Shown: in pieces, positions 6,539 to 23,074 of the stretch | Position numbering within the stretch: position 1 is the stretch's first letter | Layout of the letters: the number at the start of each line of letters is the position of its first letter | DNA from: a virus | Direction: 5' to 3' (one strand) | IMG/VR virus record: IMGVR_UViG_3300008267_000346 | Coordinates: 1 to 24,762 of that record | Length of the DNA stretch: 24,762 bases | The notes under the pieces: generated by a model | The model's database searches: none | Told to the model about the DNA's origin: nothing | Seen by the model: the letters and a program-made list of their open reading frames with translations, nothing else | Translations under genes and position numbers: made by a program

Positions 6539-8898
6539 ATGCTTATTGGGGCAAAGCTTTTTATATTTAATTGATTACTAAGTCCAGTGTTTCCTTCTTT
6601 TGTGGTTCCAGCGACTTCTGGGCAAGTTAGACCGTTTTCTATCTTTTTAGCTTCTATTGGTGATCCTCCATCTATTCCAGATGCGCTTCCTCGCATTGCC
6701 TCATATGTTGGAGCAAGAGTCAATGGTATATTTCTAAATGCATGGCTATGGGGATATACGAAAAAACATCCATCATCGGCCTTTTGTCCACTATCAGTTG
6801 ATACAATTGGAACGGGATTATTTGTAATTTCTATTGTCTTTTCCGATCCATCTATTTTCGCAGTAAATGTAGTTCCTACGGCAAGATATCCAATTTTTAA
6901 AGAAGAATTGGGATCAGCTGTTCCATACAATTCGGATTGATATTCGGTTTCCTGTAGAGACATTGGAGCAGTAATGTGTTGGACAAATAATTCACCGTGA
7001 GCCATGATACCCCCACGGCATATTATATTGCCATCCACAGACAGATTCGGTTTTACAAATACTTGATTGGAGGATTGAATGGCAACATTTGATGCTTTGA
7101 TGGAAAGAATGTCATCTGTTGCAATGTTTAAACCACTTTTTGCGCTGATGTTTATTTGTTCTCCGGTGACTTCTGCGATGGTTCCGTGAATACTCATGAC
7201 TCCGGTGCTGCTGAAATCGATTCCACCGGAGCCTCCTAAGATGTTTATTCCGTTTTGAGCATCAACGGTAAACTGTCCACCTGGAAACCTATCAACGTGT
7301 ACCTTTTCCACCACCGCTCCCACCACTTGCGATGGATATACCCCCTTTGCTCCGTCTAATTTCAACCCAATATCATGTGCCGAACCCTGATTGTTAACTC
7401 TCACGCTATCCAAATCATTGGATGCACAACCAATGCTCAAGAACACGTCCTTTGTAACGTTTAGGGTCAAGCTTCCACCCTCTCCTAAATCATTTTCAGC
7501 CTCAAAGAAATCTTGAGCCGAGTTCAAATATAAATTTCCAATCTCTTCTTTTCTTTCTTCTTTTGGAAAATTCCCACCCATCGATGATGGTGATTTCCCA
7601 CTACCAGAACAAACTGGACAGTCTTTTGTTTTGGGGTATTGCTCGTCCTTTGCATCTTGGATTTCCAGCTTAGTTTCTTTTCCAAGAAAAGAAAAAATAT
7701 TTCCCTTTAATGTGTCCAGCAAAGAAGTTTGACCATCACCAATCGTCTTGCTATTCTTTTCATCACCATTTCCTCCTGTAAGCGTTTTAAACGATTTTCC
7801 CTGACTACATGCTGGACAGGGGGCGTTATCTCCACCCTTTTTGGCTAATGGGGAAGAATAAAAACTATCACTTCCTGAATTTTGAGTCTCTGGAAGGCTC
7901 TTAACAGCATGAATATTTGATGCTGTATCTTTCCACTTTTGGGCAGCAGCATAATTTGCACTTCCTATTGTTATCTGAACATCTTTTTGCACAGAAACAT
8001 TGGAATTGTCACCACAATGAAAGGAATGAGTATCATCTATTGTGGAGTATGCTGGACCTTTTACCAAACTGCTCTTTTGACCCATCACAAGATTCTGTTG
8101 ACCGGAATTATTGAACTCGTTATATGAACCGCTGTCATGTGCAATGCTTAGAGACTCCTCATTGTCCGTTCCGTTGAAAGAAATACTACCACCTTTTTGG
8201 TTGATAGCCATCATGTTTCTTCTTTTTACATTTTCCGGATTCGCTTCCTGTGTTGGATCATTGTTTTCATATCCACTTGGATGGTTCGTATCATCATAAA
8301 TCTGACCGTATGTGGAGGCGGACGGACTATATCCAAAAACAACAGGTGTATTTGGGTTTCCATCTAGGAAAAACAGCCAAACCTTTGTATTGACTTGAGG
8401 AATGCCAAACATTCCCTTTGGTGCATTATAAAAAGATTGGGTATTGTATGTTGCGCCTAGCGGATTTGGATTGTCTGAAGAAGAGGAGAATCGATCCGAT
8501 GGTGGGTTTGCCTTAACTTCCGCCCCTGCTGGTGCTCCGGTTGACCCATCGTCTTCTGCAATTTGATTTGCATAAGATGGACTGTCAGAAATTGTTGCCT
8601 TGTTGGATGTGGAATTAAATGAACTATAGCCACCTCCGGTTATTGGAAGAGAAACTTCTGCCCAAGGGAGCTTGAGCTTGATTTTCTCCATGTATTTTGT
8701 GAGATCAACTAGATTTGGGTCTTTCTTTTGATAATTCGTTCCAAATTCTCCGAAATAAAATTCCTTATCGTGATCACTTTCTTCCAAATCAAGCAAAGAA
8801 AGGTGAATGTGTGGAACAAATACTTTAACTCTTCCTAACTTTTGTGGATCATTGTTCTGAACAATTACTCCTCTATAAAATCCATTTAAGTTTTTCAT
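6535..8898 (-). CDS. 5: Baseplate central spike, gp5-like, without lysozyme domain
   Basis: A 787-residue protein of the gp5/VgrG type that would form the trimeric spike at the tail tip. The N terminus (FYRGVIVQNNDPQKLGRVKV, residues 7-26) is the typical OB-fold start, continued by LPWAEVSLPITGGG (77-90) and YNAPKGMFGIPQVNTKVWLFFLDGNP (157-182). No lysozyme domain can be recognised. Instead a hydrophilic region carries two CxxC pairs, CPACSQGKS (361-369) and CPVCSGSGKS (427-436), like DnaJ-type zinc knuckles. Residues 475-640 show short repeating strands ending in I/V-x-I/V, consistent with a beta-helix. A His-containing stretch near the end (FFVYPHSHAF, 712-721) could help bind a metal at the tip. 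The gene overlaps both neighbours by 4 nt (ATGA). Gene symbol by analogy with T4. Confidence 0.82.
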   Translation of the reverse strand: MKNLNGFYRGVIVQNNDPQKLGRVKVFVPHIHLSLLDLEESDHDKEFYFGEFGTNYQKKDPNLVDLTKYMEKIKLKLPWAEVSLPITGGGYSSFNSTSNKATISDSPSYANQIAEDDGSTGAPAGAEVKANPPSDRFSSSSDNPNPLGATYNTQSFYNAPKGMFGIPQVNTKVWLFFLDGNPNTPVVFGYSPSASTYGQIYDDTNHPSGYENNDPTQEANPENVKRRNMMAINQKGGSISFNGTDNEESLSIAHDSGSYNEFNNSGQQNLVMGQKSSLVKGPAYSTIDDTHSFHCGDNSNVSVQKDVQITIGSANYAAAQKWKDTASNIHAVKSLPETQNSGSDSFYSSPLAKKGGDNAPCPACSQGKSFKTLTGGNGDEKNSKTIGDGQTSLLDTLKGNIFSFLGKETKLEIQDAKDEQYPKTKDCPVCSGSGKSPSSMGGNFPKEERKEEIGNLYLNSAQDFFEAENDLGEGGSLTLNVTKDVFLSIGCASNDLDSVRVNNQGSAHDIGLKLDGAKGVYPSQVVGAVVEKVHVDRFPGGQFTVDAQNGINILGGSGGIDFSSTGVMSIHGTIAEVTGEQINISAKSGLNIATDDILSIKASNVAIQSSNQVFVKPNLSVDGNIICRGGIMAHGELFVQHITAPMSLQETEYQSELYGTADPNSSLKIGYLAVGTTFTAKIDGSEKTIEITNNPVPIVSTDSGQKADDGCFFVYPHSHAFRNIPLTLAPTYEAMRGSASGIDGGSPIEAKKIENGLTCPEVAGTTKEGNTGLSNQLNIKSFAPISI

Positions 8899-11053: not shown

Positions 11054-11416
11054 TTAACTTAGGGTCAAAAGATACTTCGTTTTGTTAATAACAGCAAGCA
11101 TTTCATCCTTCAAATTCAACAAATCGCTGTCTTTTTCAGGATTCAATCCATCTGGAAGTGTAATTGTTAAAAAATTAATAATTTCTTCTAGTGCATCAGA
11201 GGTTTGAATATCTCCTTCTGAATAAATTGTAAGATCAATTGTGGAGAGATTTTTTCCATATTTTCCAAGCATTACTTCTACAAATTCGTCGATCATGTCA
11301 TTTAAGCTATCGTATGCTTTTCCAAGTGCTTCGTGTTTTGCAAAGGAATCGGTAGACCAATGATGAAATTTAATTTGATTTAGTATTGTTAACAATCCTT
11401 GAATTATTCTTTCCAT
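11054..11416 (-). CDS. Small helical ferritin/Dps-like phage protein (DUF5856-like)
   Basis: The 120-residue, all-helical protein resembles the first half of Dps/ferritin-like bundles. FHHWSTDSFAKHEALGKAYDSLNDMIDEF (17-45) gives H18/H19-W20, H28, D40 and D43-E44, close to the His-His-Asp-Glu arrangement of ferroxidase sites. I believe a phage family with this appearance is catalogued as DUF5856, from memory. It is shorter than Dps (about 160-170 residues). It lies alone between fibre genes with its own divergent promoter. Whether it binds iron is unknown. Confidence 0.65.
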   Translation of the reverse strand: MERIIQGLLTILNQIKFHHWSTDSFAKHEALGKAYDSLNDMIDEFVEVMLGKYGKNLSTIDLTIYSEGDIQTSDALEEIINFLTITLPDGLNPEKDSDLLNLKDEMLAVINKTKYLLTLS

Positions 11417-11450: not shown

Positions 11451-12851
11451 GTGGAGGAATTTTACAAAAAGAATTACACAATTAAAACAGACAAATCAAT
11501 TGACCCATATGAGCCATCTTTTAGGGTTACAATTCATAATTTGTCTGGAACAAATGTAACAATTAGAGGAGATATGTTTCAATTCACCACATTGAACGGT
11601 CTTTATCTTTCTTCTAATAATCCGTCAATGTCTTCAATTGAATTAGATTTATACACAGAAATAAAATCAATCAGTGCAAGATATCCCTCAGTTTACGGCT
11701 TTCCTGTTTATGAATATGATGTATTGGATAATGGAATGCTTTTACAGTTCAGATTACCGGAAAATCTTTTAGCTGGAAATTATGATATTCTTTATTTTAA
11801 CGGTGCAGGATATGCAAAAGCATCAAATACTAAAAGATTTACATTTTTTCAAATCGTATCTGGAATCGAATTCACACCAATTCCTACAATTTCACAAACT
11901 CCAACCCCTACGGTCACCATTACATCTACTCCAACAATTACACCAACGAATACGATTACACCAACACCTACAATAACTCCCACGGTTACTATTACCTCTA
12001 CTCCGACAGTAACGCCTACTATTACGCCTACTATTACGCCGACTGAAACCCCAACAGTAACCCCAACCTCTACAGTAACGCCCACAGAGACGCCCACTCC
12101 TACACTAACGCCTACTTCAACTCCTGATATTTGGAACCCAGAAAAAATATCAACGGCTTTTTGGTACGATGCGTCCGATTCCTCCACAATAACATCAAGT
12201 GGAAGTGAAGCAACTCAAGTTCTGGACAAGTCCGGAAACAGTCATACTCTCACAGTGAAATCTGGACAATCTGGTCCATTTACTGGAACACGAACACTTA
12301 ATGGGTTAAATGTTCTTGAGTGGACTGGAAACAATTGTCTTGAAAATACTTCATTTACATATAATCAATCTACAACACCTCTCAATATCGCAATAGTGAT
12401 CCTAGCCGATGAAAGTACAACGCAACACTTTATTTTAGCGGGAACAACCACCACAACAGCAGGAACACGCATGTCAACGAGAGTCACCGTTGGTGATGTG
12501 TGGGATGTTCTAGGCGGTTCAAATACAGGTGTGAATCAAAGGATGTTAACTGGACCAACGGTTATTGGAGATCAACCATACATCATCTTGCCAAAATACA
12601 ATGGAGCATCTTCCGCATGGAGAATTAATGGAACTCAAACCAATACCGGAAATATAGGAACGAACTCGTATACTACTCTTCAAGTGGGTCACAATGAAGT
12701 TGAAAAATTTGATTTAGATGGCTATATTGCAGAAATGGTTGCATTCTCCGATAATACACAACAAGAAATTGTAGAAGGATACTTGGCGTGGAAGTGGGGA
12801 TTGGTATCGAATCTCCCATCAGGACACCCATATAAAAACATAAGACCCTAA
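11451..12851 (+). CDS. Tail fibre with short Thr-Pro linker and C-terminal LamG-like domain
   Basis: The 466-residue protein has three parts. Residues 1-140 form a beta-rich N-terminal domain unlike that of the other fibre. Residues 142-226 are a Thr-Pro linker with the TPTx rhythm. From W228 to the end is a domain that looks like a concanavalin/LamG-type beta-sandwich: FWYDASDSSTI near its start, VLDKSGN, then GYIAEMVAFSDN and EGYLAWKWGL near the end, the usual signature of this family in secreted and phage proteins. That domain is about 80% identical by eye to the end of the 923-residue fibre on the other side of the glycan operon. The start is GTG, set by the promoter motif 5 nt upstream. 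A role in host-surface glycan binding is likely but inferred. Confidence 0.82.
   Translation: MEEFYKKNYTIKTDKSIDPYEPSFRVTIHNLSGTNVTIRGDMFQFTTLNGLYLSSNNPSMSSIELDLYTEIKSISARYPSVYGFPVYEYDVLDNGMLLQFRLPENLLAGNYDILYFNGAGYAKASNTKRFTFFQIVSGIEFTPIPTISQTPTPTVTITSTPTITPTNTITPTPTITPTVTITSTPTVTPTITPTITPTETPTVTPTSTVTPTETPTPTLTPTSTPDIWNPEKISTAFWYDASDSSTITSSGSEATQVLDKSGNSHTLTVKSGQSGPFTGTRTLNGLNVLEWTGNNCLENTSFTYNQSTTPLNIAIVILADESTTQHFILAGTTTTTAGTRMSTRVTVGDVWDVLGGSNTGVNQRMLTGPTVIGDQPYIILPKYNGASSAWRINGTQTNTGNIGTNSYTTLQVGHNEVEKFDLDGYIAEMVAFSDNTQQEIVEGYLAWKWGLVSNLPSGHPYKNIRP
11874..12128 (+). repeat. Thr-Pro repeat linker (short version)
   Basis: About 85 codons encode alternating Thr with Pro or a variable residue (TPTx, 12-nt period), with mixed synonymous Thr and Pro codons. 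The same kind of repeat, seven times longer, occurs at 21041-22828. Confidence 0.85.
12132..12851 (+). repeat. Inverted long repeat, left copy (LamG-like domain)
   Basis: About 720 nt closely matching the reverse complement of 20303-21031. The longest identical run I found by eye is 37 nt (12292-12328 against 20835-20871). The two copies face each other and bracket the endonuclease and glycan genes. Confidence 0.85.
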
Positions 12852-12956
12852 AATTTAACAGTTAAAATAGCAACATAGGCATAATTATAAACTGGAGTTG
12901 TTTATAGTGAAAAAATTATTGTTGAAAGTGCTTGATTGATTCTTTGATTTCTCATT

Positions 12957-12964
12957 TTAAATAT
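12957..12964 (+). promoter_or_regulatory. Late-promoter motif TTAAATAT
   Basis: TAAATA (12958-12963) ends exactly 5 nt before the ATG at 12969. The 117-nt gap between 12852 and this gene shows no other feature. Confidence 0.6.
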
Positions 12965-12968
12965 AAAC

Positions 12969-13226
12969 ATGTTTACTTGCAAGGTTTGTGAAAAAGAATT
13001 TGAATTGAAAAGCCAATTGGCGGGGCATTCAAATTTGCATACAAAAACCAAAAAGAAATTGGAATATGAGGCGAATCCAAGATTATGTAAGGAATGTGGG
13101 GGAATTATTCCTTATTCTTCTTTAAGAAGAAGAAATAAAATGGTTTTTTGTGGAATCTCTTGTAGGTCTAAGTTCTTTTATAGGGAAAATCCGAAATGTT
13201 TATTGAAAAATAAAAAAGTTTCGTAA
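12969..13226 (+). CDS. Small two-zinc-finger protein
   Basis: An 85-residue basic protein with a classical C2H2 finger (C4, C7, H20, H24; spacing C-x2-C-x12-H-x3-H) and a second Cys4 site (C40, C43, C61, C65). Such paired zinc sites occur at the N termini of phage HNH endonucleases, so this may be a free DNA-binding protein or the remnant of an endonuclease that lost its nuclease half. It is followed by an HNH gene in the same orientation and is AT-rich and lysine-rich like that gene. The start is supported by the promoter motif 5 nt upstream. Confidence 0.68.
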   Translation: MFTCKVCEKEFELKSQLAGHSNLHTKTKKKLEYEANPRLCKECGGIIPYSSLRRRNKMVFCGISCRSKFFYRENPKCLLKNKKVS

Positions 13227-13244
13227 AAAAGCATTAACTAAATG

Positions 13245-13253
13245 CTAAATAAT
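13245..13253 (+). promoter_or_regulatory. Late-promoter motif CTAAATAAT before the HNH gene
   Basis: TAAATA (13246-13251) ends exactly 5 nt before the ATG at 13257. An earlier in-frame ATG at 13242 overlaps the motif itself and is therefore unlikely to be used. A small inverted repeat GCATT/AATGC (13231-13245) abuts it. Confidence 0.7.
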
Positions 13254-13256
13254 TAC

Positions 13257-13877
13257 ATGTTTAAAACATGTACAAGATGTGGAGTTGAGAAAAATGTTGA
13301 GGAGTTTTATAGAAAATTGAAGGGTAGTGAAGAAAGACGTGGCGATTGTAAAGTTTGTGTAAATTTGAATAATAAAATATATTCAAAAATAAATTTAAAA
13401 AAAGTTAATGATATAAAAAGAAAATATGTGGAAAGACATAAAGACAGAGTTAAACAATCTAAATTAAAATGGTTCGACAAAAATCCGAATTATAAAAAAG
13501 AATGGGCTGAAAAAAATAGGAAAAAAATTAGAGAAAAAAGTAATTATAGATATAAAAACGATGTTTTATGTAAATTACAAAACTCTGTTAGAAATAGAAT
13601 AATTGGGTTTTTAAAAAGAAAAAACGTAAATAAAAAAAATAAAACTTTTAATATTTTGGGCTGTTCTCCAGAATTTTTAAAAGAACACATTGAAAAACAA
13701 TTTAAAGAAGGAATGAGTTGGGAAAATTACGGACTATATGGGTGGCACATAGATCACATCATTCCTTTATCTTCTGCAAAAACAGAAGAAGAGATTTATA
13801 AATTAGCCCATTATACTAATTTACAACCCTTATGGGCTAAGGATAATTTAGCGAAAAGTAAAAAAATAATTACTTAA
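13257..13877 (+). CDS. HNH endonuclease
   Basis: A 206-residue probable homing-type nuclease. The N terminus has a zinc ribbon (C5, C8, C31, C34), followed by a long Lys/Asn-rich basic stretch that likely wraps DNA. The C-terminal HNH motif reads WHIDHIIPLSSAKTEEEIYK (163-182), then HYTNLQPLWAKDNLAKSKK, a very common phage HNH signature with H164, D166-H167 and the Asn of NLQPL. The composition is markedly more AT- and Lys-rich than the neighbouring fibre and glycan genes, as expected for an inserted selfish gene. Its stop overlaps the stop of the convergent glycosyltransferase gene in the shared TTAA at 13874-13877. Start chosen at 13257 from the promoter position. Confidence 0.9.
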   Translation: MFKTCTRCGVEKNVEEFYRKLKGSEERRGDCKVCVNLNNKIYSKINLKKVNDIKRKYVERHKDRVKQSKLKWFDKNPNYKKEWAEKNRKKIREKSNYRYKNDVLCKLQNSVRNRIIGFLKRKNVNKKNKTFNILGCSPEFLKEHIEKQFKEGMSWENYGLYGWHIDHIIPLSSAKTEEEIYKLAHYTNLQPLWAKDNLAKSKKIIT

Positions 13878-15553
13878 TTTTCTTTTCTTAATCCAGAGGA
13901 ATAATGATGAAATCTATCGTGTTCAATTGGACTTAATAATAATATTCCAGCATTAATTCTACCCTTAATTGTTTCTTGAAATACTTGGGACATAAGGGTT
14001 TGCTCAAATGCATGTGCAAATTTAGTTTCAAGATAACATTTATAATTTCCTTCTTTGGTTAAAAGAATAGGCCAATTGCAAAGAAAGATTTCTCCAGTTG
14101 CATATGGTAATCCTTTATGACATTTTATGTTTTTAAATTGAGTCAATGGGGCATTTGGATCGAATCCCTGAACTGGTAATCTTGGATTTTCGGGCCAATG
14201 TTTTGCTCTGAATTCTTGGGGCGTGTTATACCAAGCAATTTGAGTTGAATTTGTAGAATAAAATTCACTAAAACTTAATTTTAAAAAATCAAAATTTTCT
14301 TTTTTTACAATTTCCAAAGATTTTTGATATAAATTCGGACAGTATCTATTGAATCCACTTTTACAGGTAACTTCTTTATTTGCATATAGTTGCATATCAT
14401 CTTCAAAAAACAGGTATGCGTTCAAATCTGTCTGATCGAAATGTTCTGCAATAAAAACTCTCCCCCCACAGATCCCAATATTATCCTTTTTGATATGTTC
14501 AAAACCATATTGTTCACAAAGTTCCACATATCGTGGAGTCGTGGTAAGATCAACCGAATTATCCAACAAAAACTTTCTCGGTTTATTGATAAAGTCCGCA
14601 TCATATTCCAACATGGACTTGATCAAGGTTTCAAATTGTTCAGGACTATTAAAACTAATCACATATAGTCCTACTTTCTCAATATCAATTCTCTTTGAGA
14701 TTTCTCCAGTTTTCTTTGGGCAAATATTCTTGACTTCAAATTTATCATTTTTCAAATCCTCGCAGAATTTGGAAATCAAACCATTGGATTCAATTTCAAC
14801 ATAATCAATCATTCCACATTGTCTATAGAGTATAATACTGAATATAGATTCTTCTGTCCCCATATATCCATCATTCAAAGTGCTCGACAATGTTCCATGA
14901 TAAATGGTATTAATTTCAGATATTGTGTCTTTTGGTCCTCCGAATAACCCTCCTCTGCAAACCAACTTCACATCTTTTCCAGCATAGTCATTTATTTTAG
15001 GATAAGGAAAACCATGAATTTCATTGTTTGGTTCATATGGAAATGCAACAAATCCAAATCTATCAAAAACCTTCGGTAGTTTATTCTGAACCTTATCGTG
15101 TGTAAAATATCCAGAATGAACCGTATTTGTTATGCCAGCATCGATCCAATACATATGACTTGAATTGAAACGATCCATAATTCTAGCATCATTGAGCAAA
15201 AATACTTTGGACATCACAAGGGGATTGTACATTTCCAATGTCGCTTGCGTTGAATCTTTCAACCATCCTGCTTGGTTATACCAATTTGGGCTGTTTCTTA
15301 TATTTTGAATCTTATCGTAAAATTCATTTTTAAACCAGTTTTTACTTCTACAAACAAATTGAGTATTTTCCGGACTTCTGTGTTGGAAAACAAAACTTTC
15401 CAGTTCCTGTTCTCCAAAAATAATCATGTTGTTTTCAATTTTTAGGAGTTCAGATAACTTGGAAAGATAATGATCGAAATTTCTAGACCAACCTTCTTTC
15501 AATTCTCCCCTGCCGATGTCCCAAAGACCCGTTACAATTGTCACGTTATTCAT
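13874..15553 (-). CDS. Two-domain glycosyltransferase (HtrL/YibB-like plus GT-A)
   Basis: The 559-residue protein, last gene of the glycan operon. Residues 1-285 resemble the HtrL/YibB family: TIVTGLWDIGRGELKEGWSR (5-24), NNMIIFG (41-47), and YWIDAG (135-140). Residues 290-559 look like a second GT-A fold: VGLYVISFNSPEQFETLIKS (294-313), KFLLDNSVD, and LFFEDDMQLY (381-390), where E384-D385-D386 would supply the metal-binding acidic motif. The C terminus contains TGEIFLCNWPILL and a His-rich end. Two active sites in one chain suggest that it adds two sugars or builds a disaccharide unit. The ATG overlaps the preceding stop by 4 nt. Donor and acceptor are unknown. Confidence 0.78.
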   Translation of the reverse strand: MNNVTIVTGLWDIGRGELKEGWSRNFDHYLSKLSELLKIENNMIIFGEQELESFVFQHRSPENTQFVCRSKNWFKNEFYDKIQNIRNSPNWYNQAGWLKDSTQATLEMYNPLVMSKVFLLNDARIMDRFNSSHMYWIDAGITNTVHSGYFTHDKVQNKLPKVFDRFGFVAFPYEPNNEIHGFPYPKINDYAGKDVKLVCRGGLFGGPKDTISEINTIYHGTLSSTLNDGYMGTEESIFSIILYRQCGMIDYVEIESNGLISKFCEDLKNDKFEVKNICPKKTGEISKRIDIEKVGLYVISFNSPEQFETLIKSMLEYDADFINKPRKFLLDNSVDLTTTPRYVELCEQYGFEHIKKDNIGICGGRVFIAEHFDQTDLNAYLFFEDDMQLYANKEVTCKSGFNRYCPNLYQKSLEIVKKENFDFLKLSFSEFYSTNSTQIAWYNTPQEFRAKHWPENPRLPVQGFDPNAPLTQFKNIKCHKGLPYATGEIFLCNWPILLTKEGNYKCYLETKFAHAFEQTLMSQVFQETIKGRINAGILLLSPIEHDRFHHYSSGLRKEN

Positions 15554-16239
15554 TTTTTGATATATAATTTTTGCCTTCCTTCAAACAAGAGATTATAACC
15601 CAATTCCAAAAGTTTTGGGGAAAGAAATGCATCTTTTCCAACTCCATCGATATCAAAATCCGTGTCATCAATTAAAATTAAATGCGTTTCCGCTAGTTTT
15701 TCTTTTACCACTTCAAAACATTCCAAGTGTTTTTCCCTATATTGATCTGTTCCTGTATCCCATCCATCTAAAAATAAAACATCGATTTTTTTATCAAATT
15801 TCTTTAAAAATTCAATTCCATCTTCTGGGATATGGAGATGAAGATTATTTGGAAATTCTTTTCCAATATTACCAAAAGACCAAATGGCTTGTGTTTTTGT
15901 GTGGGGATCAATATCACATGAATAAACATCAAATCCTTCCATATTCCACACGATTCCACCATGACCATCAGCACAACATGGCGGGGAAATGAAAGGATCG
16001 ATATTTTCAGAATTATAATAATCCAAGCATTTTTGTGACAATGCGAATCTAGTCGCTCCAATTTCCACAACAGTTTTCATATTTAAGATTTTCGCAATCT
16101 TTGCCGCTGTTTTCAAGTAAGGAGCGGGTTTACTTCTCACAAAATCATGATCATGCCCAGTCAGTGAAAGGGTCTTCCAATATTTTTTAGGAATACTTTC
16201 ATTGAATTCTTTTGCTATTTTAAAAATTTCCTCAATCAT
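15550..16239 (-). CDS. Class I SAM-dependent methyltransferase
   Basis: A 229-residue Rossmann-type methyltransferase. Motif I is VVEIGATRFALSQK (57-70), with Gly61 but not the full GxGxG; VYSCDIDP (105-112) supplies the acidic residue after strand 2; IDVLFLDGWD (152-161) and LILIDDTD (187-194) match strands 4 and 5 of small-molecule O-methyltransferases such as the Methyltransf_24 type. The segment SPPCCADGHGGIVW (85-98) is an unusual Cys/His insertion near the active site. The coupled position (4-nt overlaps at both ends) with glycosyltransferases suggests methylation of a sugar, but the acceptor is not shown by the sequence. Confidence 0.75.
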   Translation of the reverse strand: MIEEIFKIAKEFNESIPKKYWKTLSLTGHDHDFVRSKPAPYLKTAAKIAKILNMKTVVEIGATRFALSQKCLDYYNSENIDPFISPPCCADGHGGIVWNMEGFDVYSCDIDPHTKTQAIWSFGNIGKEFPNNLHLHIPEDGIEFLKKFDKKIDVLFLDGWDTGTDQYREKHLECFEVVKEKLAETHLILIDDTDFDIDGVGKDAFLSPKLLELGYNLLFEGRQKLYIKK

Positions 16240-16907
16240 AAGGGTTTAATATACCAATCTCCAAAAACTTCAGAATAATTTAATTTTTCATATCCGCAAT
16301 CATTTGTGAATTCATTTAAAATTTGTTCTGCTTCCTCATTTGTTAATACATCTCTATGATTGTGCTCAAAAAGAATAAAAGGTTTATCTTTCATTTTTTG
16401 AATAACATTTTTCATCGATTTGATGACATTGTAATCCCTATTTTCTGTATCGATTTTTATCAAATTAACTTTATTTAAATTATCAATGTAATTTGAAAGT
16501 AAATTTTCAGCACTTACCATTTTAACTGAAATTCCACCGTGTTCAGTCATTTTAGATACTCCCATATCGATGTGATCATCATTTGAACCCAAAATACAAT
16601 CAATTGAAAATTGAGTTTCTCCATCTTGGTCGGAAACCGCAAAGTCATATATTTTACAATTCTGAACATCCTTGAACTTCTCTTTCAAATAATCATTAAG
16701 CATGGGGGCTGGTTCTACCATGACAACACTCTCTATTTCATATTCATCTTTCAAGACATCGTAGAACTTTCCGACATTTGCGCCAATATCAATATAGTTA
16801 AGTTTTTTAACCCCTTTTGGGTTGAAAAAATTTCTAATATAAGAAACTTCGTTCATTATATGTTTCTGAATCAGTTCATTGTCCCATTTTTTAATATAAT
16901 CTTGCAT
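16236..16907 (-). CDS. FkbM-family methyltransferase
   Basis: A 223-residue SAM-dependent O-methyltransferase of the FkbM type. Motif I is NYIDIGANVGKFYDVL (37-52), then VVMVEPAPMLNDYL (61-74) with the ribose-binding Glu65, YDFAVSDQDGE (87-97), and LIKIDTENRDYNVIKSM (149-165), the family's hallmark IDxE strand, here with Asn-Arg-Asp after the Glu. FkbM enzymes commonly methylate sugars in glycan clusters. The start overlaps the preceding sulfotransferase gene by 17 nt. It is the second methyltransferase in this operon. Confidence 0.85.
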   Translation of the reverse strand: MQDYIKKWDNELIQKHIMNEVSYIRNFFNPKGVKKLNYIDIGANVGKFYDVLKDEYEIESVVMVEPAPMLNDYLKEKFKDVQNCKIYDFAVSDQDGETQFSIDCILGSNDDHIDMGVSKMTEHGGISVKMVSAENLLSNYIDNLNKVNLIKIDTENRDYNVIKSMKNVIQKMKDKPFILFEHNHRDVLTNEEAEQILNEFTNDCGYEKLNYSEVFGDWYIKPL

Positions 16908-17598
16908 TGTTCAATTTTTCTTTAAATTTATCGTCAATGACAGTATTAGCAAGCTCGATTTGTTCTAAGGTCAATTGTTTTGGATAACCCTCAATATAAT
17001 ATTTTTCAGAATCTTTATTATAATCTTTTGAAAGAAGAACATCCCCCTTTTCAACATTGATCCAAGTTTCGCTTTTTTTATATTTTTTTTCTTCTCTCCA
17101 ATTTAAAACCTCAGTTATTTTATTTAAAATGTCGTTTCTCTTTTCATTTAATAAAAGATCTTCATATTTTATTAAAATCAAATTTTTCCGGTATTCTTCT
17201 TTCAACAAAAAAACCCAATTTTCATAAAATTGCCTGTAACAATTGCAAATTAAATTCAAACTTATATTTTTGTCCGATAAAATAAAATCTTTTTCTGTTT
17301 TTATGATTCTGTTTTGATCTATTACATCTTTTTTGGTTTTTGTTAATGTGATAATATGTTCCCCATCACTCGGTCTTCTAAAAATAACGGATTCCAGCCA
17401 AGTTAAATCATTTTTATATATCACAAACAGTGGAACGTCTTCCATTTTATCCGGAACTTTTATAGAATGTTTCCAATGCTCACTAAAATTGCAATTTGTA
17501 TTGAGCATTTTTATTTTGGAAAAATTAATATGTAAAAGTTTTGCCAAATAATTGGTTCCGCTTCTATGTAATCCAAACAAATATATTTGGTTTTCCAT
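16891..17598 (-). CDS. Sulfotransferase-like protein
   Basis: The 235-residue protein opens with IYLFGLHRSGTNYLAKLL (5-22), the 5'-phosphosulfate-binding loop of PAPS-dependent sulfotransferases. A later segment, LILIKYEDLLLNEKRNDIL (139-157), matches the conserved YEDL region of the family, and the C-terminal part (GYPKQLTLEQIELANTVI) fits the usual helical end. A clear 3'-phosphate-binding motif is less obvious. The enzyme would transfer sulfate to a hydroxyl, probably of a sugar given its neighbours. The ATG overlaps the upstream stop by 1 nt (TAATG), with AGAGGAA as a ribosome-binding site. Confidence 0.8.
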   Translation of the reverse strand: MENQIYLFGLHRSGTNYLAKLLHINFSKIKMLNTNCNFSEHWKHSIKVPDKMEDVPLFVIYKNDLTWLESVIFRRPSDGEHIITLTKTKKDVIDQNRIIKTEKDFILSDKNISLNLICNCYRQFYENWVFLLKEEYRKNLILIKYEDLLLNEKRNDILNKITEVLNWREEKKYKKSETWINVEKGDVLLSKDYNKDSEKYYIEGYPKQLTLEQIELANTVIDDKFKEKLNNARLY

Positions 17599-18416
17599 TA
17601 CTCAATTTCCTCTATTTGTTTGAAACATTCTGGAATAAAAAACTTAGGTTCTGATTTCAATATTTCAGGATGATTGCAACCTGTTTTCATCAAGGCATTT
17701 GAATGTTTCACTACAGGAAATGTTGTAACTCCCTGAAACTTATACCATTCATCATATGTTTTTACTTTTTCAATATCAGGCTCATATGGAACAACGTATT
17801 TTTTTATTCTTTTATGTTTAAAATAAAAAGACATCAAAACATCATCTGATTTGGTTTTTCCAAGAAAATCATTAAAAAAATCTTCTTCAAAATATCTAAC
17901 AAAATAAGAAGCTGATTTATAATGCTGCAATTCCTTAACTCTTGAAATTTCACCCACACTAATAATCCAAGAATCCCGCAAATCTGCGAATTTAGGAGGA
18001 ACCAGACTCCTTCCATCATATAAAATAACAGAATTTTCCAAGATATTATGGTATTTCACGTGTTCATTGACCATATCTGGGTGATAAACAAGATCATCGT
18101 CAACAACAATCAACAAAGTGTTTTTGGATTCCCTTTGAATGGTCGGAACAACCTTTGTGGATGGGCCGAAATCCTCTGTACGGAATATTTTTAAATGAGA
18201 AAATGCTTCACATTTTTCATTCAACCATTTTGGAATTTCATATTTTTCACTAGTGACCAAATAAACATAAGGAAGGTTCAAATGAACTTCGTAATTGGAA
18301 TTGTTTTGATTGCAAAGAGAATCAATAACAGACCTGAAACCATCATAAACATCATAATTTAGTCTATCTGGAACGGTTGTTAATGTGATTACAATTTTGT
18401 CAATCGGCACTGGCAT
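17598..18416 (-). CDS. Glycosyltransferase, GT-A fold
   Basis: A 272-residue single-domain glycosyltransferase. The N-terminal strand IDKIVITLTTVPDRL (5-19) begins the nucleotide-binding fold. TEDFGPSTKVVPTI (80-93) is characteristic of one group of capsule or LPS-type transferases, and LLIVVDDDLVYHPDMV (101-116) carries the metal-binding D106-D107-D108. KSDDVLMSFYF probably supplies the catalytic acid region. No membrane segments. It sits in the middle of the operon, overlapping the DUF6165-like gene by 17 nt. Sugar donor unknown. Confidence 0.83.
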   Translation of the reverse strand: MPVPIDKIVITLTTVPDRLNYDVYDGFRSVIDSLCNQNNSNYEVHLNLPYVYLVTSEKYEIPKWLNEKCEAFSHLKIFRTEDFGPSTKVVPTIQRESKNTLLIVVDDDLVYHPDMVNEHVKYHNILENSVILYDGRSLVPPKFADLRDSWIISVGEISRVKELQHYKSASYFVRYFEEDFFNDFLGKTKSDDVLMSFYFKHKRIKKYVVPYEPDIEKVKTYDEWYKFQGVTTFPVVKHSNALMKTGCNHPEILKSEPKFFIPECFKQIEEIE

Positions 18417-18753
18417 GGTTCATTTTGATATCTCGATATCCTTCTTTGGAGATATCGACAATATCGTTTTTATATCCAACTCTTATTTTATTTAATTCTC
18501 TGATTGCAATCGCCCTTCTCCCAACTTCTTCCAAACCAAGCTCACCCTCTTTTCCTTTTCTGATATCGGATTCCAAGTCCCAAATTTTACCATTCACATC
18601 GATTAATTTTTGAATATAATCTTCCATGTTTTGGTATTTCTTTATTTCGTTTCCCAAATCTTCAATTTCGGATTGATTTTCCGCATTTGCTCTTTCTTTT
18701 TTAAGCAATGCGATGGAATACCTGTCACAAATCTCGCTTATTGGCATTTTCAT
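18400..18753 (-). CDS. DUF6165-like small helical protein
   Basis: A 117-residue helical, charged protein: PISEICDRYSIALLKKERA (4-22), a coiled-coil-like middle, then KIWDLESDIRKGKEGELGLE (56-75) and VGRRAIAIRELNKIRVGYKN. This resembles a small family (DUF6165-like, from memory) that often accompanies glycosyltransferases; its function is unknown. It overlaps both neighbours (ATGA at the start), so it is made together with them. It may be an accessory subunit for one of the transferases. Confidence 0.68.
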   Translation of the reverse strand: MKMPISEICDRYSIALLKKERANAENQSEIEDLGNEIKKYQNMEDYIQKLIDVNGKIWDLESDIRKGKEGELGLEEVGRRAIAIRELNKIRVGYKNDIVDISKEGYRDIKMNHASAD

Positions 18754-20003
18754 AGTTTGCCTGTAATTCTATCGCACCATCCTTTGGATTCCGAGTGCGG
18801 CCATACCACCCAATTTGTAACTTGTTTTGTAGTTTGAAATTCTCTCCACACTTTGCAATACTTGTCTGGATCGTTCATCATTCTTGCAATTTCATTTTTA
18901 TCAGCATCTTTTCGATACAATGTTTCACCGGAATCGTCATGGAATGCAACAACCCAGAAATCATAATCTTTTTCAGGAACGCTCGCATATTGAATATCTA
19001 TACAATGCTTGAATACCCTTGCGAATTGTTTTTTCCAATTTTCAAATCCTCCAAGAGATTCAATGGAAGGATTTGGTGCGTCTTTTTTGTCCAATGTATA
19101 TTGTTGAATTGATCTTTCGGAAAACAACAATCCACTATATTCCTCATAATCCCTCAATGTTCTAACATTTCCAAAACCATATTTTCCTTCATGTCCTTCT
19201 TGGGTAAGTCCATCCATTCCAAAAAGTTTTCTATTTGTGAAGTGAGAGTGGTTATTTTTAATAACCCATTCCTTGTCTACATCCCATTGCTTGGTTCTCC
19301 CTTTTCTCGTATATTCGTGCCAAATAACAACTCTGTGAGTATGAAACAAATCATAACCATGTGTAAATGCCCTCACTCCAATAGAAATTTCCTCACCATG
19401 AAAATAATATTCAGGATTGTGTTGAACTTCTTTTGAAAATTCACCAAGAGTAAAACAAAAATGAGCGGAATAGAATCTGGCTGGAACAGGAGAATTCAAC
19501 TCTTTCCAGTTTGGAATTGTTTCAGGTAGAAAGAAAACAGCACCTTCTGGAATGAATCGATCAAATACCATTCTCCAAGGTTCTTGAATTCTTTCGGCGG
19601 GATCGTTCTCTGGATTAAAAGATGGAACATAACCAGTCAGAAGTGGCTTTTTATGTCCCTTTTTCTGCAAATCTTTAACCATTTTGATTAAAGTTTCGTC
19701 CCAATTTGGAGTAAATCTCATATGGGAATCTATTTGCAATGTATATTTTTCCCCGTCATATTGTTGTTGAACGAGGTTTCTAGCCCAACATACACCTTTG
19801 GATTCTTTGTGGGGGATATTAACTACCTTGAATCTTGTATCATCTTTCCACTTTTCCAAACTATCCGATTGATCATCTGGGTTATATTGTCTAGCAATAG
19901 AAAACACGAGATTTTCCGGTTTTTTGGCATTTTTAATACAATCTTCAATTGTAACAGGAAGTTGCGGGTCACAAAATGATGCGATTTGAATAAAGATTTT
20001 CAC
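18750..20003 (-). CDS. GT60-like polypeptide N-acetylglucosaminyltransferase
   Basis: The 417-residue protein, first in the glycan operon, matches the GlcNAc-transferase family (GT60-like) that includes eukaryotic enzymes adding GlcNAc to Thr or hydroxyproline of proteins. Key stretches: IFIQIASFCDPQLPVTIEDC (3-22), KESKGVCWARNLVQQQY (66-82), LQIDSHMRF (89-97) with the D92-x-H94 metal motif, PEYYFHGEEISIGVRAFTHG (197-216), and VIWHEY (226-231). The C-terminal 120 residues are family-variable. The start is GTG; TAAGATA, a one-insertion variant of the promoter core, ends 5 nt upstream. Its protein-modifying relatives and the flanking Thr-rich fibres suggest it starts glycan chains on the fibre. 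Bacterial relatives of GT60 also exist in other contexts, so the acceptor is not certain. Confidence 0.83.
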   Translation of the reverse strand: MKIFIQIASFCDPQLPVTIEDCIKNAKKPENLVFSIARQYNPDDQSDSLEKWKDDTRFKVVNIPHKESKGVCWARNLVQQQYDGEKYTLQIDSHMRFTPNWDETLIKMVKDLQKKGHKKPLLTGYVPSFNPENDPAERIQEPWRMVFDRFIPEGAVFFLPETIPNWKELNSPVPARFYSAHFCFTLGEFSKEVQHNPEYYFHGEEISIGVRAFTHGYDLFHTHRVVIWHEYTRKGRTKQWDVDKEWVIKNNHSHFTNRKLFGMDGLTQEGHEGKYGFGNVRTLRDYEEYSGLLFSERSIQQYTLDKKDAPNPSIESLGGFENWKKQFARVFKHCIDIQYASVPEKDYDFWVVAFHDDSGETLYRKDADKNEIARMMNDPDKYCKVWREFQTTKQVTNWVVWPHSESKGWCDRITGKL

Positions 20004-20008
20004 ATTCC

Positions 20009-20015
20009 TATCTTA
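20009..20015 (-). promoter_or_regulatory. Possible variant late promoter TAAGATA before the glycan operon
   Basis: The minus strand reads TCTAAGATA, one inserted base away from CTAAATA, ending exactly 5 nt before the GTG at 20003. No better promoter is visible in the 30-nt gap; readthrough from the fibre genes is the alternative. Confidence 0.35.
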
Positions 20016-20033
20016 GAGGAAAATGTAAAAAAA

Positions 20034-20282
20034 TCAAATTGAAACAGCAGAAAGTTCTCCGCTATTTGTGACAATCAAACGATATTGATCCCCGTTATTA
20101 TCGGAAAGAATAATGTTGTCACAAACGAAATTACCATTAACGGTAAGATCATCGTGAAACACAGAGTCACCTGAAACAGAATTATTATAGCAACTGTCGA
20201 TAAGATCGGAAAATGCGGATTGATCAGGATAATCTCCAGTTTCAAATAATGCCTTTAATTCTTCTGATGTTTTAATTGCCAT
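20034..20282 (-). CDS. Small fibre-base module protein
   Basis: An 82-residue protein that aligns along its whole length with residues 1-81 of the 923-residue fibre encoded just upstream (LKALFETGDYPDQSAFSDLI here, LKTRFENGDLPDQTDYRDLV there; both continue DSC-NNSVSG). This K/R-x-F-x-x-G-D-x-P-x-x-x-x-F-x-D-L-I-D-S motif is common at the N termini of phage fibre proteins. The gene therefore encodes the attachment module alone, without repeat or lectin-like domain. It could be a spacer, a competitor or a decayed fibre. It has its own promoter motif 5 nt from the ATG. Confidence 0.78.
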   Translation of the reverse strand: MAIKTSEELKALFETGDYPDQSAFSDLIDSCYNNSVSGDSVFHDDLTVNGNFVCDNIILSDNNGDQYRLIVTNSGELSAVSI

Positions 20283-20285
20283 GAT

Positions 20286-20294
20286 TGTATTTAG
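20286..20294 (-). promoter_or_regulatory. Late-promoter motif CTAAATACA
   Basis: On the minus strand TAAATA ends exactly 5 nt before the ATG at 20282. Confidence 0.65.
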
Positions 20295-20302
20295 TTTTTA
20301 AT

Positions 20303-21031
20303 TTATGCGGTTCTTGGTGGATCGTTTTTATATGGGTGTCCTGATGGGAGACTTGATACCAATCCCCACTTCCATGCAAGATATCCTTCCACGATTTGTT
20401 GATTTGTATTATCTGAGAATGCGACCATTTCTGCGATATAACCATCTAAATCGCTGGCTTCCGTTTCATTATGGCCCAGTTGAAGAGTAGTATAAGAATT
20501 TGTTCCAATATTTCCGGTATTGGTCTGAGTTCCATTAATTCTCCATGCGGAAGTTGATCCGTTATATTTTGGTAGGATTAGATATGGTTGACCTCTGGTG
20601 GCGGCTGTTCCAGCTTGCATGGATTGGTTTACACCAGTATTTGAGCCTCCCAAAATTTCCCATGCATTATCAGCGGCGAGTCTCATTGACATGCGTGTTC
20701 CTGCTGTTGTGGTGGTTGTTCCCGCTAAAATAAAGTGTTGTGCTGTTCCGCCGTCTATTTGAAGAATGATAGCAACATTCAAAGGTGTTGCGGATTGATT
20801 ATATGTAAATGAAGCATTTTCTAAACAATTATTCCCAGTCCACTCAAGAACATTTAACCCATTAAGTGTTCTTGTTCCAGTAAGTGGTCCAGATTGTCCA
20901 GATTTCACTGTGAGAGTGTGGATGTTTCCAGACTTATCGAGAACTTGGGTCGCTTGACTTCCACTTGATGTTATTGTAGAGGAATCAGATGCATCATACC
21001 AGAAAACCGTACTTATTTGAGACGGTTCCCA
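20303..21031 (-). repeat. Inverted long repeat, right copy (LamG-like domain)
   Basis: Codes for residues 682-923 of the large fibre and matches the opposite strand of 12132-12851. The products are about 80% identical; differences cluster in a short surface-like segment (around residues 90-130 of the domain), while most of the rest is nearly unchanged. Confidence 0.85.
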
Positions 21032-23074
21032 CAAAGCGTTCGGCGTCATTGTAGGCGTTGGAGTGTTGGTCGGAGTTACCGTTGAGGTTGGGGTTATGGT
21101 GGGGGTCGGGGTTTCTGTTGGAGTTACACTAGGAGTGACTGTATTTGTTGGACTTATAGTCGGAGTTACCGTAGAAGTCGGAGTTTCTGTGGGAGTATTT
21201 GTTGGCGTTACGCTTGATGTTACAGTTGGTGTTGGGGTTTCAGTTGGCGTAACGCTTGGAGTCACGGTTGGCGTGGGTGTTTCAGTTGGCGTAACGCTTG
21301 GAGTAATAGAAGGTGTAACGCTTGGAGTCACGGTTGGCGTGGGTGTTTCAGTTGGCGTCACACTTGGAGTGTTTGTTGGAGTAACTGTTTGAGTCGGTGT
21401 AATTGTTGGAGTAACGCTTGATGTTACAGTTGGTGTGGGTGTTTCAGTTGGCGTTATACTTGGTGTCACGGTTTGTGTTGGCGTTAATGTCGGTGTTTCC
21501 GTTGGAGTTACGCTTGGTGTGACCGTTGGGGTTGGCGTTACACTCGAAGTAATTGTTGGCGTAATGCTTGGCGTTATAGTCGGAGTTGGAGTCTCCGTAG
21601 GAGTGAGTGTCGGTGTAGAGGTTTGTGTGATACTGGGCGTTACGGTTGGTGTAATAGTCGGAGTAGGTGTTTCGGTTGGCGTAACGCTTGGAGTAACAGT
21701 TGATGTTGGGGTTTGTGTTGGGGTAATACTTGGTGTTATTGTCGGAGTGACAGTAGGGGTTACTGTTTGCGTTGGTGTAATTGTGGGAGTCGTGCTTGGC
21801 GTTACACTGGGCGTTGTTGTCGGAGTAGATGTTGCCGTTGGAGTGGGGCTTTCGGTTGGGGTAATTGAAGGTGTAACAGTTGTAGTAACCGTAGGAGTCA
21901 CGCTTGTTGTTACTGTTGGAGTAGGGGTTACGGTAGATGTTGGAGTTTCTGTTGGTGTTATGCTCGGAGTAATTGTTGGCGTAACAGTCGATGTGGGAGT
22001 GATAGTTGGTGTAACGGTTGGCGTTGTTGTCGGAGTGATGCTCGATGTGGGGGTTACCGTTGGTGTTGTTGTCGGTGTGGTTGTGGGTGTAGTTGTTGGG
22101 GTGGGAGTTTCAGTGGGAGTAACGGAAGGTGTGACGCTTGAAGTAACAGTTGGCGTTGGTGTCTCAGTTGGAGTGACTGAAGAAGTCACAGTTGGGGTAA
22201 CGGTGGGTGTAACAGTAGAAGTTGGTGTAATTGTGGGGGTTGCGGAGGGGGTATTGGTTGGAGTAACGCTAGGTGTTATAGTGGGTGTAACTGTTGGCGT
22301 ATTTGTTGGAGTGACTGTTGGGGTCGAAGTCTGAGTTGGTGTAATTGAGGGGGTTACGGTTGGAGTAACGCTCGTTGTAACTGTAGGTGTTGGTGTTTCA
22401 GTTGGAGTTATCGAAGTAGTCGGGGTTGGAGTGACGGAAGATGTGGGTGTAACGGTCTGAGTGGGCGTGGATGTTGGTGTTTCAGTTGGCGTTGTTGTTG
22501 GAGTTACTGTATTTGTCGGCGTGACAGTTGGGGTAATTGTCGGGGTCGTGGTTGGAGTTAAAGTCGATGTTGGGGTTGTTGTGGGAGTGAGGGTTGGGGT
22601 AACTGAACTGGTCGGAGTTGTGGTTGGGGTTATAGTGGGCGTGATTGTAGGAGTTACGCTATTGGTTGGAGTGATCGTTGGAGTTGTGGTTGGGGTAACG
22701 GTATTGGTCGGTGTTAATGTGGGTGTTGGTGTTGCGGTTCTTGTTGGCGTTACAGTAGGAGTTACACTATTTGTCGGAGTAACTGTATTTGTCGGAGTGA
22801 CGGTCGGTGTCGGCGTTGGTGTTGGTGGAATTACCAATACTGCACTCAATGAACCATTTATAACTTCCAACGAATAAACTCCACCATAAGAATTCGTTAA
22901 CAGAATGTTGTTGGGATTAAAATCTCCAACAACGGATAAAGATGCGAAATATGTGGAAGATCCTGAAACAGAATTGTTAAAACAAGAATCTACCAGATCA
23001 CGGTAATCCGTCTGATCTGGTAGATCTCCATTTTCAAATCTTGTTTTTAAAAAATCGCTACTTTGGTTCGCCAC
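20303..23074 (-). CDS. Large tail fibre with about 600-residue Thr-Pro repeat and LamG-like tip
   Basis: A 923-residue modular fibre. Residues 1-82 are the fibre-base module (FENGDLPDQTDYRDLVDSC). Residues 83-678 are an almost unbroken TPTx repeat in which every second residue is mostly Thr (sometimes Ser), with Pro and a variable residue (V, I, N, S, E, L, Q) filling the others; no aromatic or basic residue is apparent apart from one early Arg. This resembles mucin and cellulosome linkers: extended, stiff, and rich in possible O-glycosylation sites. From W682 comes a LamG-like beta-sandwich (FWYDASDSSTI, later GYIAEMVAFSDN and EGYLAWKWGL). The start is GTG, with the late-promoter motif 5 nt upstream. 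The glycan operon lies immediately downstream on the same strand. Confidence 0.85.
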   Translation of the reverse strand: MANQSSDFLKTRFENGDLPDQTDYRDLVDSCFNNSVSGSSTYFASLSVVGDFNPNNILLTNSYGGVYSLEVINGSLSAVLVIPPTPTPTPTVTPTNTVTPTNSVTPTVTPTRTATPTPTLTPTNTVTPTTTPTITPTNSVTPTITPTITPTTTPTSSVTPTLTPTTTPTSTLTPTTTPTITPTVTPTNTVTPTTTPTETPTSTPTQTVTPTSSVTPTPTTSITPTETPTPTVTTSVTPTVTPSITPTQTSTPTVTPTNTPTVTPTITPSVTPTNTPSATPTITPTSTVTPTVTPTVTSSVTPTETPTPTVTSSVTPSVTPTETPTPTTTPTTTPTTTPTVTPTSSITPTTTPTVTPTITPTSTVTPTITPSITPTETPTSTVTPTPTVTTSVTPTVTTTVTPSITPTESPTPTATSTPTTTPSVTPSTTPTITPTQTVTPTVTPTITPSITPTQTPTSTVTPSVTPTETPTPTITPTVTPSITQTSTPTLTPTETPTPTITPSITPTITSSVTPTPTVTPSVTPTETPTLTPTQTVTPSITPTETPTPTVTSSVTPTITPTQTVTPTNTPSVTPTETPTPTVTPSVTPSITPSVTPTETPTPTVTPSVTPTETPTPTVTSSVTPTNTPTETPTSTVTPTISPTNTVTPSVTPTETPTPTITPTSTVTPTNTPTPTMTPNALWEPSQISTVFWYDASDSSTITSSGSQATQVLDKSGNIHTLTVKSGQSGPLTGTRTLNGLNVLEWTGNNCLENASFTYNQSATPLNVAIILQIDGGTAQHFILAGTTTTTAGTRMSMRLAADNAWEILGGSNTGVNQSMQAGTAATRGQPYLILPKYNGSTSAWRINGTQTNTGNIGTNSYTTLQLGHNETEASDLDGYIAEMVAFSDNTNQQIVEGYLAWKWGLVSSLPSGHPYKNDPPRTA
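21041..22828 (-). repeat. 1.8-kb Thr-Pro coding repeat
   Basis: A degenerate 12-nt tandem repeat encoding TPTx units, with higher-order blocks such as TPTETPTPTVTPSV recurring. All four Thr codons and all four Pro codons are mixed throughout, so the protein period is far more regular than the DNA. Long open frames on the plus strand here (Val-Gly repeats) are a by-product. Confidence 0.9.

Follow-up and report, generated by a model that had tools for sequence, protein, structure and literature searches.

A candidate phage module for O-glycosylation of threonine-proline fibre shafts, centred on a GT60 glycosyltransferase

The IMG/VR virus record IMGVR_UViG_3300008267_000346 (positions 1 to 24,762; the whole stretch analysed is hereafter the window) derives from a T4-like phage. 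This 24.8-kb viral contig has a major head protein gene at one end and also carries genes for a gp5-like baseplate hub, tail fibres and fibre assembly. Between positions 11451 and 23074, two fibre genes with threonine-proline (Thr-Pro) shafts flank seven genes on the minus strand (13874-20003), which overlap end to end, and we consider this region to be, most likely, a phage module that O-glycosylates its own fibre shafts. In the order of steps that we infer, a GT60 glycosyltransferase, a cytoplasmic relative of mucin-initiating enzymes, would place the first sugar on threonines of the Thr-Pro-Thr-x (TPTx) shaft, using a uridine diphosphate (UDP)-sugar and adding probably N-acetylglucosamine (GlcNAc) or another N-acetylhexosamine. 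The second constant component, a two-domain HtrL/YibB-GT2 protein, would extend this sugar, and variable cargo (a GT-A transferase, two methyltransferases, a possible sulfotransferase and a DUF6165-like protein) would set the final glycan. In this picture the shaft between the attachment domain and the C-terminal tip would be stretched and covered with sugars, and its physical role could lie in stiffness, protection or adhesion. A preliminary description of the window had likewise proposed that GT60 initiates glycans on the fibre threonines, and the analysis supports this interpretation overall.

In both shafts Thr recurs at every other residue and Pro at approximately every fourth, and the earlier claim that two TPTx fibres bracket seven overlapping genes was borne out, with shafts of 84 and 594 residues. 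The longer one contains 277 Thr and 137 Pro, and its Thr-Thr pairs are concentrated at lag 2 (226, vs. 26 at lag 1 and 29 at lag 3). As Thr is encoded by all four of its codons (100/86/51/40), the pattern is maintained at the protein level and does not reflect a young DNA repeat. The densest 85-residue segments contain 19 TP in the small fibre and 21 in the large fibre, compared with maxima of 6 and 13, respectively, in 300 shuffles. Both fibres end in a common C-terminal domain (80% identical), for which a search of solved-structure sequences returned nothing informative.

The identity of the proposed initiating enzyme as a GT60 protein, also claimed in the preliminary description, is firm (PF11397 in Pfam, 7e-62, 210 bits against a curated cut-off of 21). 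The DxH residues D92 and H94 as well as H229 are conserved in 41 of 41 phage and bacterial sequences, and G203, E205, Y231 and R233 are likewise invariant. Both the AlphaFold model (pLDDT, i.e., predicted local distance difference test, 93.9) and the alignment start directly at the GT-A domain, with no added membrane anchor. A structural check suggested earlier was carried out with the GT60 protein modelled alone, which fits mucin-type polypeptide N-acetylgalactosamine (GalNAc)-transferases best: these rank first among solved structures with both comparison programs and fill the top 29 VIA rows (Z 19.3-22.5), with the next family, other GT-A enzymes, following from 17.8 downward. The best VIA fit (Z 22.5) covers 274 residues at 3.5 Å. 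These GT27 enzymes are thus the closest solved fold and have the DxH motif in common with phage GT60, but they form a separate CAZy family without detectable sequence match; GT60 matched no solved-structure sequence at E 1 (single sequence) or 0.1 (profile). Because sequence searches give no solved relative, the likeness is one of fold and not of membership, and phage GT60, judged from its model, may work like GT27 without being classed as GT27.

A characterised GT60 enzyme forms GlcNAc-alpha-O-Thr on the mucins of Trypanosoma cruzi (PMC9472816, PMC3769586). By analogy with its family, the phage enzyme would be expected to transfer GlcNAc to a polypeptide, either to Thr or to hydroxyproline. 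The second of these acceptors has a precedent in Skp1 Gnt1 of Dictyostelium, a GT60 member that is a cytoplasmic hydroxyproline transferase, and the shaft is Pro-rich, so that GT60 might modify hydroxyproline of the shaft (or of another virion protein) and not threonine. This appears very improbable, as Thr is twice as frequent as Pro and strictly alternating, and prolyl-hydroxylase-like 2-oxoglutarate (2OG) oxygenases (PF13640) occur in 3 of 50 GT60-bearing records, some of which are fragments and for which a host hydroxylase is possible. Due to this rarity of 2OG oxygenases, hydroxyproline is the less likely acceptor and was set aside as a general one.

The association of GT60 with Thr-Pro proteins extends well beyond the window. 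Scanning 2.9 million viral contigs yielded 320 stretches that encode GT60 relatives, the best 80 of which were retrieved and combined with two jumbo-phage loci for a count of upstream open reading frames (ORFs; n = 82). A Thr/Ser-Pro-dense ORF lies upstream of GT60 on the same strand in 73 of these 82 loci, and in 60 of the 73 it ends 58-149 bp before GT60. When any position or strand is admitted, a Thr-Pro-dense ORF is present in 74 of 78 GT60 loci of at least 8 kb vs. 22 of 69 control loci chosen by collagen-like repeat (Fisher p ~1e-16); the operon therefore does not occur mostly in phages that lack a Thr-rich fibre. The co-occurrence foreseen in the preliminary description also holds in reverse. 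Among contigs of at least 20 kb picked solely for encoding TPTxTPTxTPT, GT60 is present in 17 of 55 (11 of the 18 that reach at least 80 kb) compared with 1 of 44 collagen-repeat contigs (p = 1.5e-4). The two-domain transferase was found in 11 of 16 GT60-positive and 0 of 33 GT60-negative TPTx contigs (49 tested; p = 1.5e-7). A metallophosphatase gene was tried as a neutral control and dropped, having relatives in 2 loci only.

Similar arrangements recur in diverged phages and in bacterial chromosomes. In the phage loci L371 and L372 a Thr-Pro ORF lies 41 bp upstream of a GT60 gene whose product is 37% identical to the enzyme of Xanthomonas phage XacN1. In a Gemmatimonadota locus (L389), GT60 is directly preceded by a Thr-Pro-tailed protein and directly followed by the two-domain protein. 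In Jiulongibacter sediminis (L377), adjacent genes encode a Thr-Pro protein, GT60, a carbamoyltransferase, an FkbM-YibB fusion and another GT60. In a Saprospiraceae locus (L373), GT60 is accompanied by a Thr/Ser-Pro protein bearing a type IX secretion tail, a Sulfotransfer_3 protein and the two-domain protein; in both, the Thr/Ser-Pro protein adjoins GT60 in divergent orientation. The abundance of such genes does not account for these pairings, since GT60 of the window's type occurs in just 1 of 395 sampled Bacteroidota genomes, that one being the search centre, and a larger bacterial survey was given up on account of this rarity. In a GT60 tree the window-type phage enzymes nest with these bacterial ones, and a Thr-Pro ORF lies within 2.5 kb of 33 of its 41 members, although the exact placing of several bacterial enzymes is unsure due to long branches. 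The second GT60 paralogue of L377 spans 7942-8862, and near the same cluster (L377:4943-7228) lie a UDP-glucose dehydrogenase gene and a gene of the NAD-dependent epimerase/dehydratase family, which may supply UDP-sugars.

XacN1 encodes the same pair of enzymes, GT60 (ORF334) and the two-domain protein (ORF330), and proteomic analysis of this phage reported at least two glycoproteins (PMC5852040), which supports protein glycosylation by such phages without fixing the acceptor. The report ties the glycoproteins neither to a Thr-Pro protein nor to a general module, and Thr-Pro stretches in the XacN1 clade tend to be shorter and lie several kilobases from GT60. Besides XacN1, the Stenotrophomonas phages RAS14 and CM1 were identified as cultured phages that carry GT60.

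Several observations weigh against the fibre shaft as the acceptor. The XacN1 glycoproteins are not named in the main text of that report (PMC5852040), and the Thr-Pro part of XacN1 ORF325 comprises 97 of 3314 residues and lies ~9 kb from the GT60 gene. A GT-A fold by itself leaves the acceptor unfixed. Of 61 Thr-Pro ORFs directly upstream of GT60, 52 have non-repeat sequence in common, the others forming seven groups, and because of this relatedness the upstream count reflects a conserved arrangement and not 60 independent inventions. In L002, L003, L006, L033, L061 and L071 the gene upstream of GT60 is not a Thr-Pro gene. Directly before GT60, L061 has a Ser/Gly/Thr repeat ORF (L061:1-831) and L071 a Thr/Ser-rich repeat protein (L071:5739-9926), so that acceptors other than Thr-Pro are possible. 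Finally, 38 of the 55 TPTx contigs, in part fragments, show no detectable GT60, which means that a Thr-Pro repeat does not require this enzyme. The last point would suit a plain, unglycosylated flexible linker, with the GT60 operon directed at something else such as phage DNA, for which DNA-modifying phage transferases are a well-known precedent. The close adjacency, the co-occurrence statistics and the bacterial Thr-Pro proteins paired with GT60 all speak against such a linker, which we regard as a marginal alternative to shaft glycosylation.

The second constant enzyme, the two-domain protein, scores 65.9 bits against HtrL_YibB (cut-off 24.1) and 79 bits against the HtrL/YibB equivalog TIGR02192, which is under the cut-off of 264.9. 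Its model comprises two GT-A-like halves (pLDDT 88; predicted template modelling score 0.56), each with an invariant acidic motif (W-x-D at 136-138 and EDDM at 384-387); a search against solved-structure sequences gave nothing informative. Of the 71 loci with sufficient sequence, 68 encode the protein downstream of GT60, and the constant core consists of GT60, this two-domain enzyme and the Thr-Pro protein. The genes between the two enzymes vary by locus and fall into 54 clusters, with GT25, GT10, GT11, GT2, FkbM, Sulfotransfer_2, Sulfotransfer_4, carbamoyltransferase, pyruvyltransferase and DUF6165 among their families. The window's complete set recurs in the same order only in L041 and L043, which also contain homologues of the DUF6165-like protein. 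Because the cargo differs between loci, the seven-gene glycan system of the preliminary description resolves into a constant pair of enzymes and a variable set of five. Its enzyme identities fared unevenly: GT60, FkbM and HtrL/YibB are solid, Methyltransf_24 and GT2 are weak, and sulfotransferase and DUF6165 are unconfirmed for the window proteins, neither of which has a relevant Pfam match even at E 10. The DUF6165-like protein does not match PF19662 and resembles a true family member over a short stretch. For the P-loop protein, solved-structure sequences gave nothing informative and only its L043 relative matches Sulfotransfer_3, weakly and below the cut-off; sequence likeness suggests that it may be a sulfotransferase. 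The cargo of L031 (2678-11992), thirteen ORFs between GT60 and the two-domain protein, includes candidates for a 364-aa DegT-type aminotransferase and a hexapeptide transferase, as if the phage built its own unusual sugar.

GT10, GT11, GT25 and carbamoyl-, pyruvyl- and methyltransferases, all found in these loci, also occur in O-antigen clusters. The main rival explanation is accordingly that the enzymes modify host surface polysaccharide or lipopolysaccharide (LPS) for superinfection exclusion and that the fibres adjoin them as fellow host-range genes, which is how glycosyltransferases from hypervariable regions in T4-like aquatic phages are usually interpreted, pelagimyophage transferases (PMC7029224) among them. 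However, the GT60 enzymes that have been characterised act on polypeptides, and the model of the initiating enzyme, a GT60 member, is nearest to polypeptide GalNAc-transferases. Neither a lipid-carrier initiating enzyme nor a flippase or polymerase family appears among the 25 commonest cargo families, and a Thr-Pro ORF abuts GT60 in bacterial chromosomes as well as in phages. Modification of host LPS is thus unlikely, if less so than the two alternatives above, although it may apply to the cargo enzymes, and glycosylation of the fibre shafts remains the preferred interpretation.

Among known systems, TcOGNT of T. cruzi and Gnt1/Gnt2 of Dictyostelium share PF11397 and, as proposed here, a Thr-rich mucin-like acceptor with the module, whereas the phage and bacterial GT60s are candidate transferases clustered with the gene of their putative substrate. 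Only a handful of cases are known in which a phage encodes the glycosylation of virion proteins. In mycobacteriophages, capsid and tail tube subunits are reported to carry glycans at their C-termini (Freeman et al. 2023, as described in PMC12619734). On that description, phage capsid and tail proteins bear glycans there as proposed here, in contrast to the repetitive Thr-Pro shaft, conserved GT60 and two-domain core and variable cargo of the present module. We found no description of GT60 in phages, or of this module, in the literature searched, which covered few subscription journals and is a weak test of novelty.

The chances appear evenly balanced that these loci represent a dedicated prokaryotic mucin system, in which a rod protein of Thr-Pro (or Thr/Ser-Pro) type, GT60 as initiator and the constant two-domain protein as extender are combined with hypervariable tailoring genes, located between initiator and extender, that give each phage its own 'glycotype', similar to bacterial O-antigen loci. 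It would reside mostly in large aquatic phages and also in rare Bacteroidota and Gemmatimonadota. If so, mucin-type O-glycosylation of fibres would be a widespread and predictable trait of large aquatic phages and would explain many 'auxiliary' glycosyltransferases beside tail genes that are usually taken as LPS modifiers. It would also provide compact initiating enzymes for Thr-Pro acceptors and extend the mucin-like solution from eukaryotes to bacteria and phages.

Table 1 Features of the Thr-Pro fibre locus in the window (aa, amino acids; nt, nucleotides)
Feature	Position	Strand	Remarks
Small Thr-Pro fibre (fibre 1) gene	11451..12851	+	466 aa; PHROG 15511/11772, function labelled unknown there
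TPTx region of small fibre	~11874-12125		residues 142-225, 84 residues
Inverted repeat	arms 12145..12839 and 20324-21018		695 nt, 82%; codes fibre C-terminal domains
C2H2/HNH-like fragment	12969-13226	+	between small fibre and operon
Endonuclease VII/HNH-like gene	13242-13877	+	between small fibre and operon
Two-domain glycosyltransferase, N-terminal HtrL_YibB and C-terminal GT2-like	13874..15553	-	PF09612 5.7e-18; constant partner of GT60
Class I methyltransferase, Methyltransf_24-like (variable cargo)	15550..16239	-	PF13578 3.7e-5, just below cut-off
FkbM-type methyltransferase (variable cargo)	16236..16907	-	PF05050 5.2e-12; TIGR01444 5.3e-17
Putative P-loop sulfotransferase-like protein (variable cargo)	16891..17598	-	L043 relative Sulfotransfer_3 7e-4, sub-threshold
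GT-A/GT2-like glycosyltransferase (variable cargo)	17598..18416	-	PF00535 0.0012, below cut-off; L041 homologue 5.8e-5
DUF6165-like small protein (variable cargo)	18400..18753	-	weak: 28% over 80 aa to DUF6165 protein
GT60 (PF11397) transferase, proposed initiating polypeptide O-glycosyltransferase	18750..20003	-	417 aa; DxH motif D92-S-H94
Small ORF between large fibre and GT60	20034..20282	-	resembles N-terminal domain of large fibre only
Large Thr-Pro fibre (fibre 2) gene	20303..23074	-	923 aa; folded N-terminal and C-terminal domains
TPTx shaft of large fibre	~21041-22822		residues 85-678, 594 residues

A scan of the locus for promoters and terminators gave signals no better than shuffles. 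An ORF like the small one that precedes GT60 in the window also lies directly upstream of GT60 in L003. The two endonuclease-like genes (12969-13877) are possibly homing endonucleases, and a DUF5856 protein, which PHROG labels a starvation-inducible regulator, is encoded on the minus strand (11054-11416) between the tail fibre genes and the small Thr-Pro fibre. The inverted repeat surrounds the whole operon, and recombination between its arms would invert the operon and exchange the fibre tips between the two shafts.

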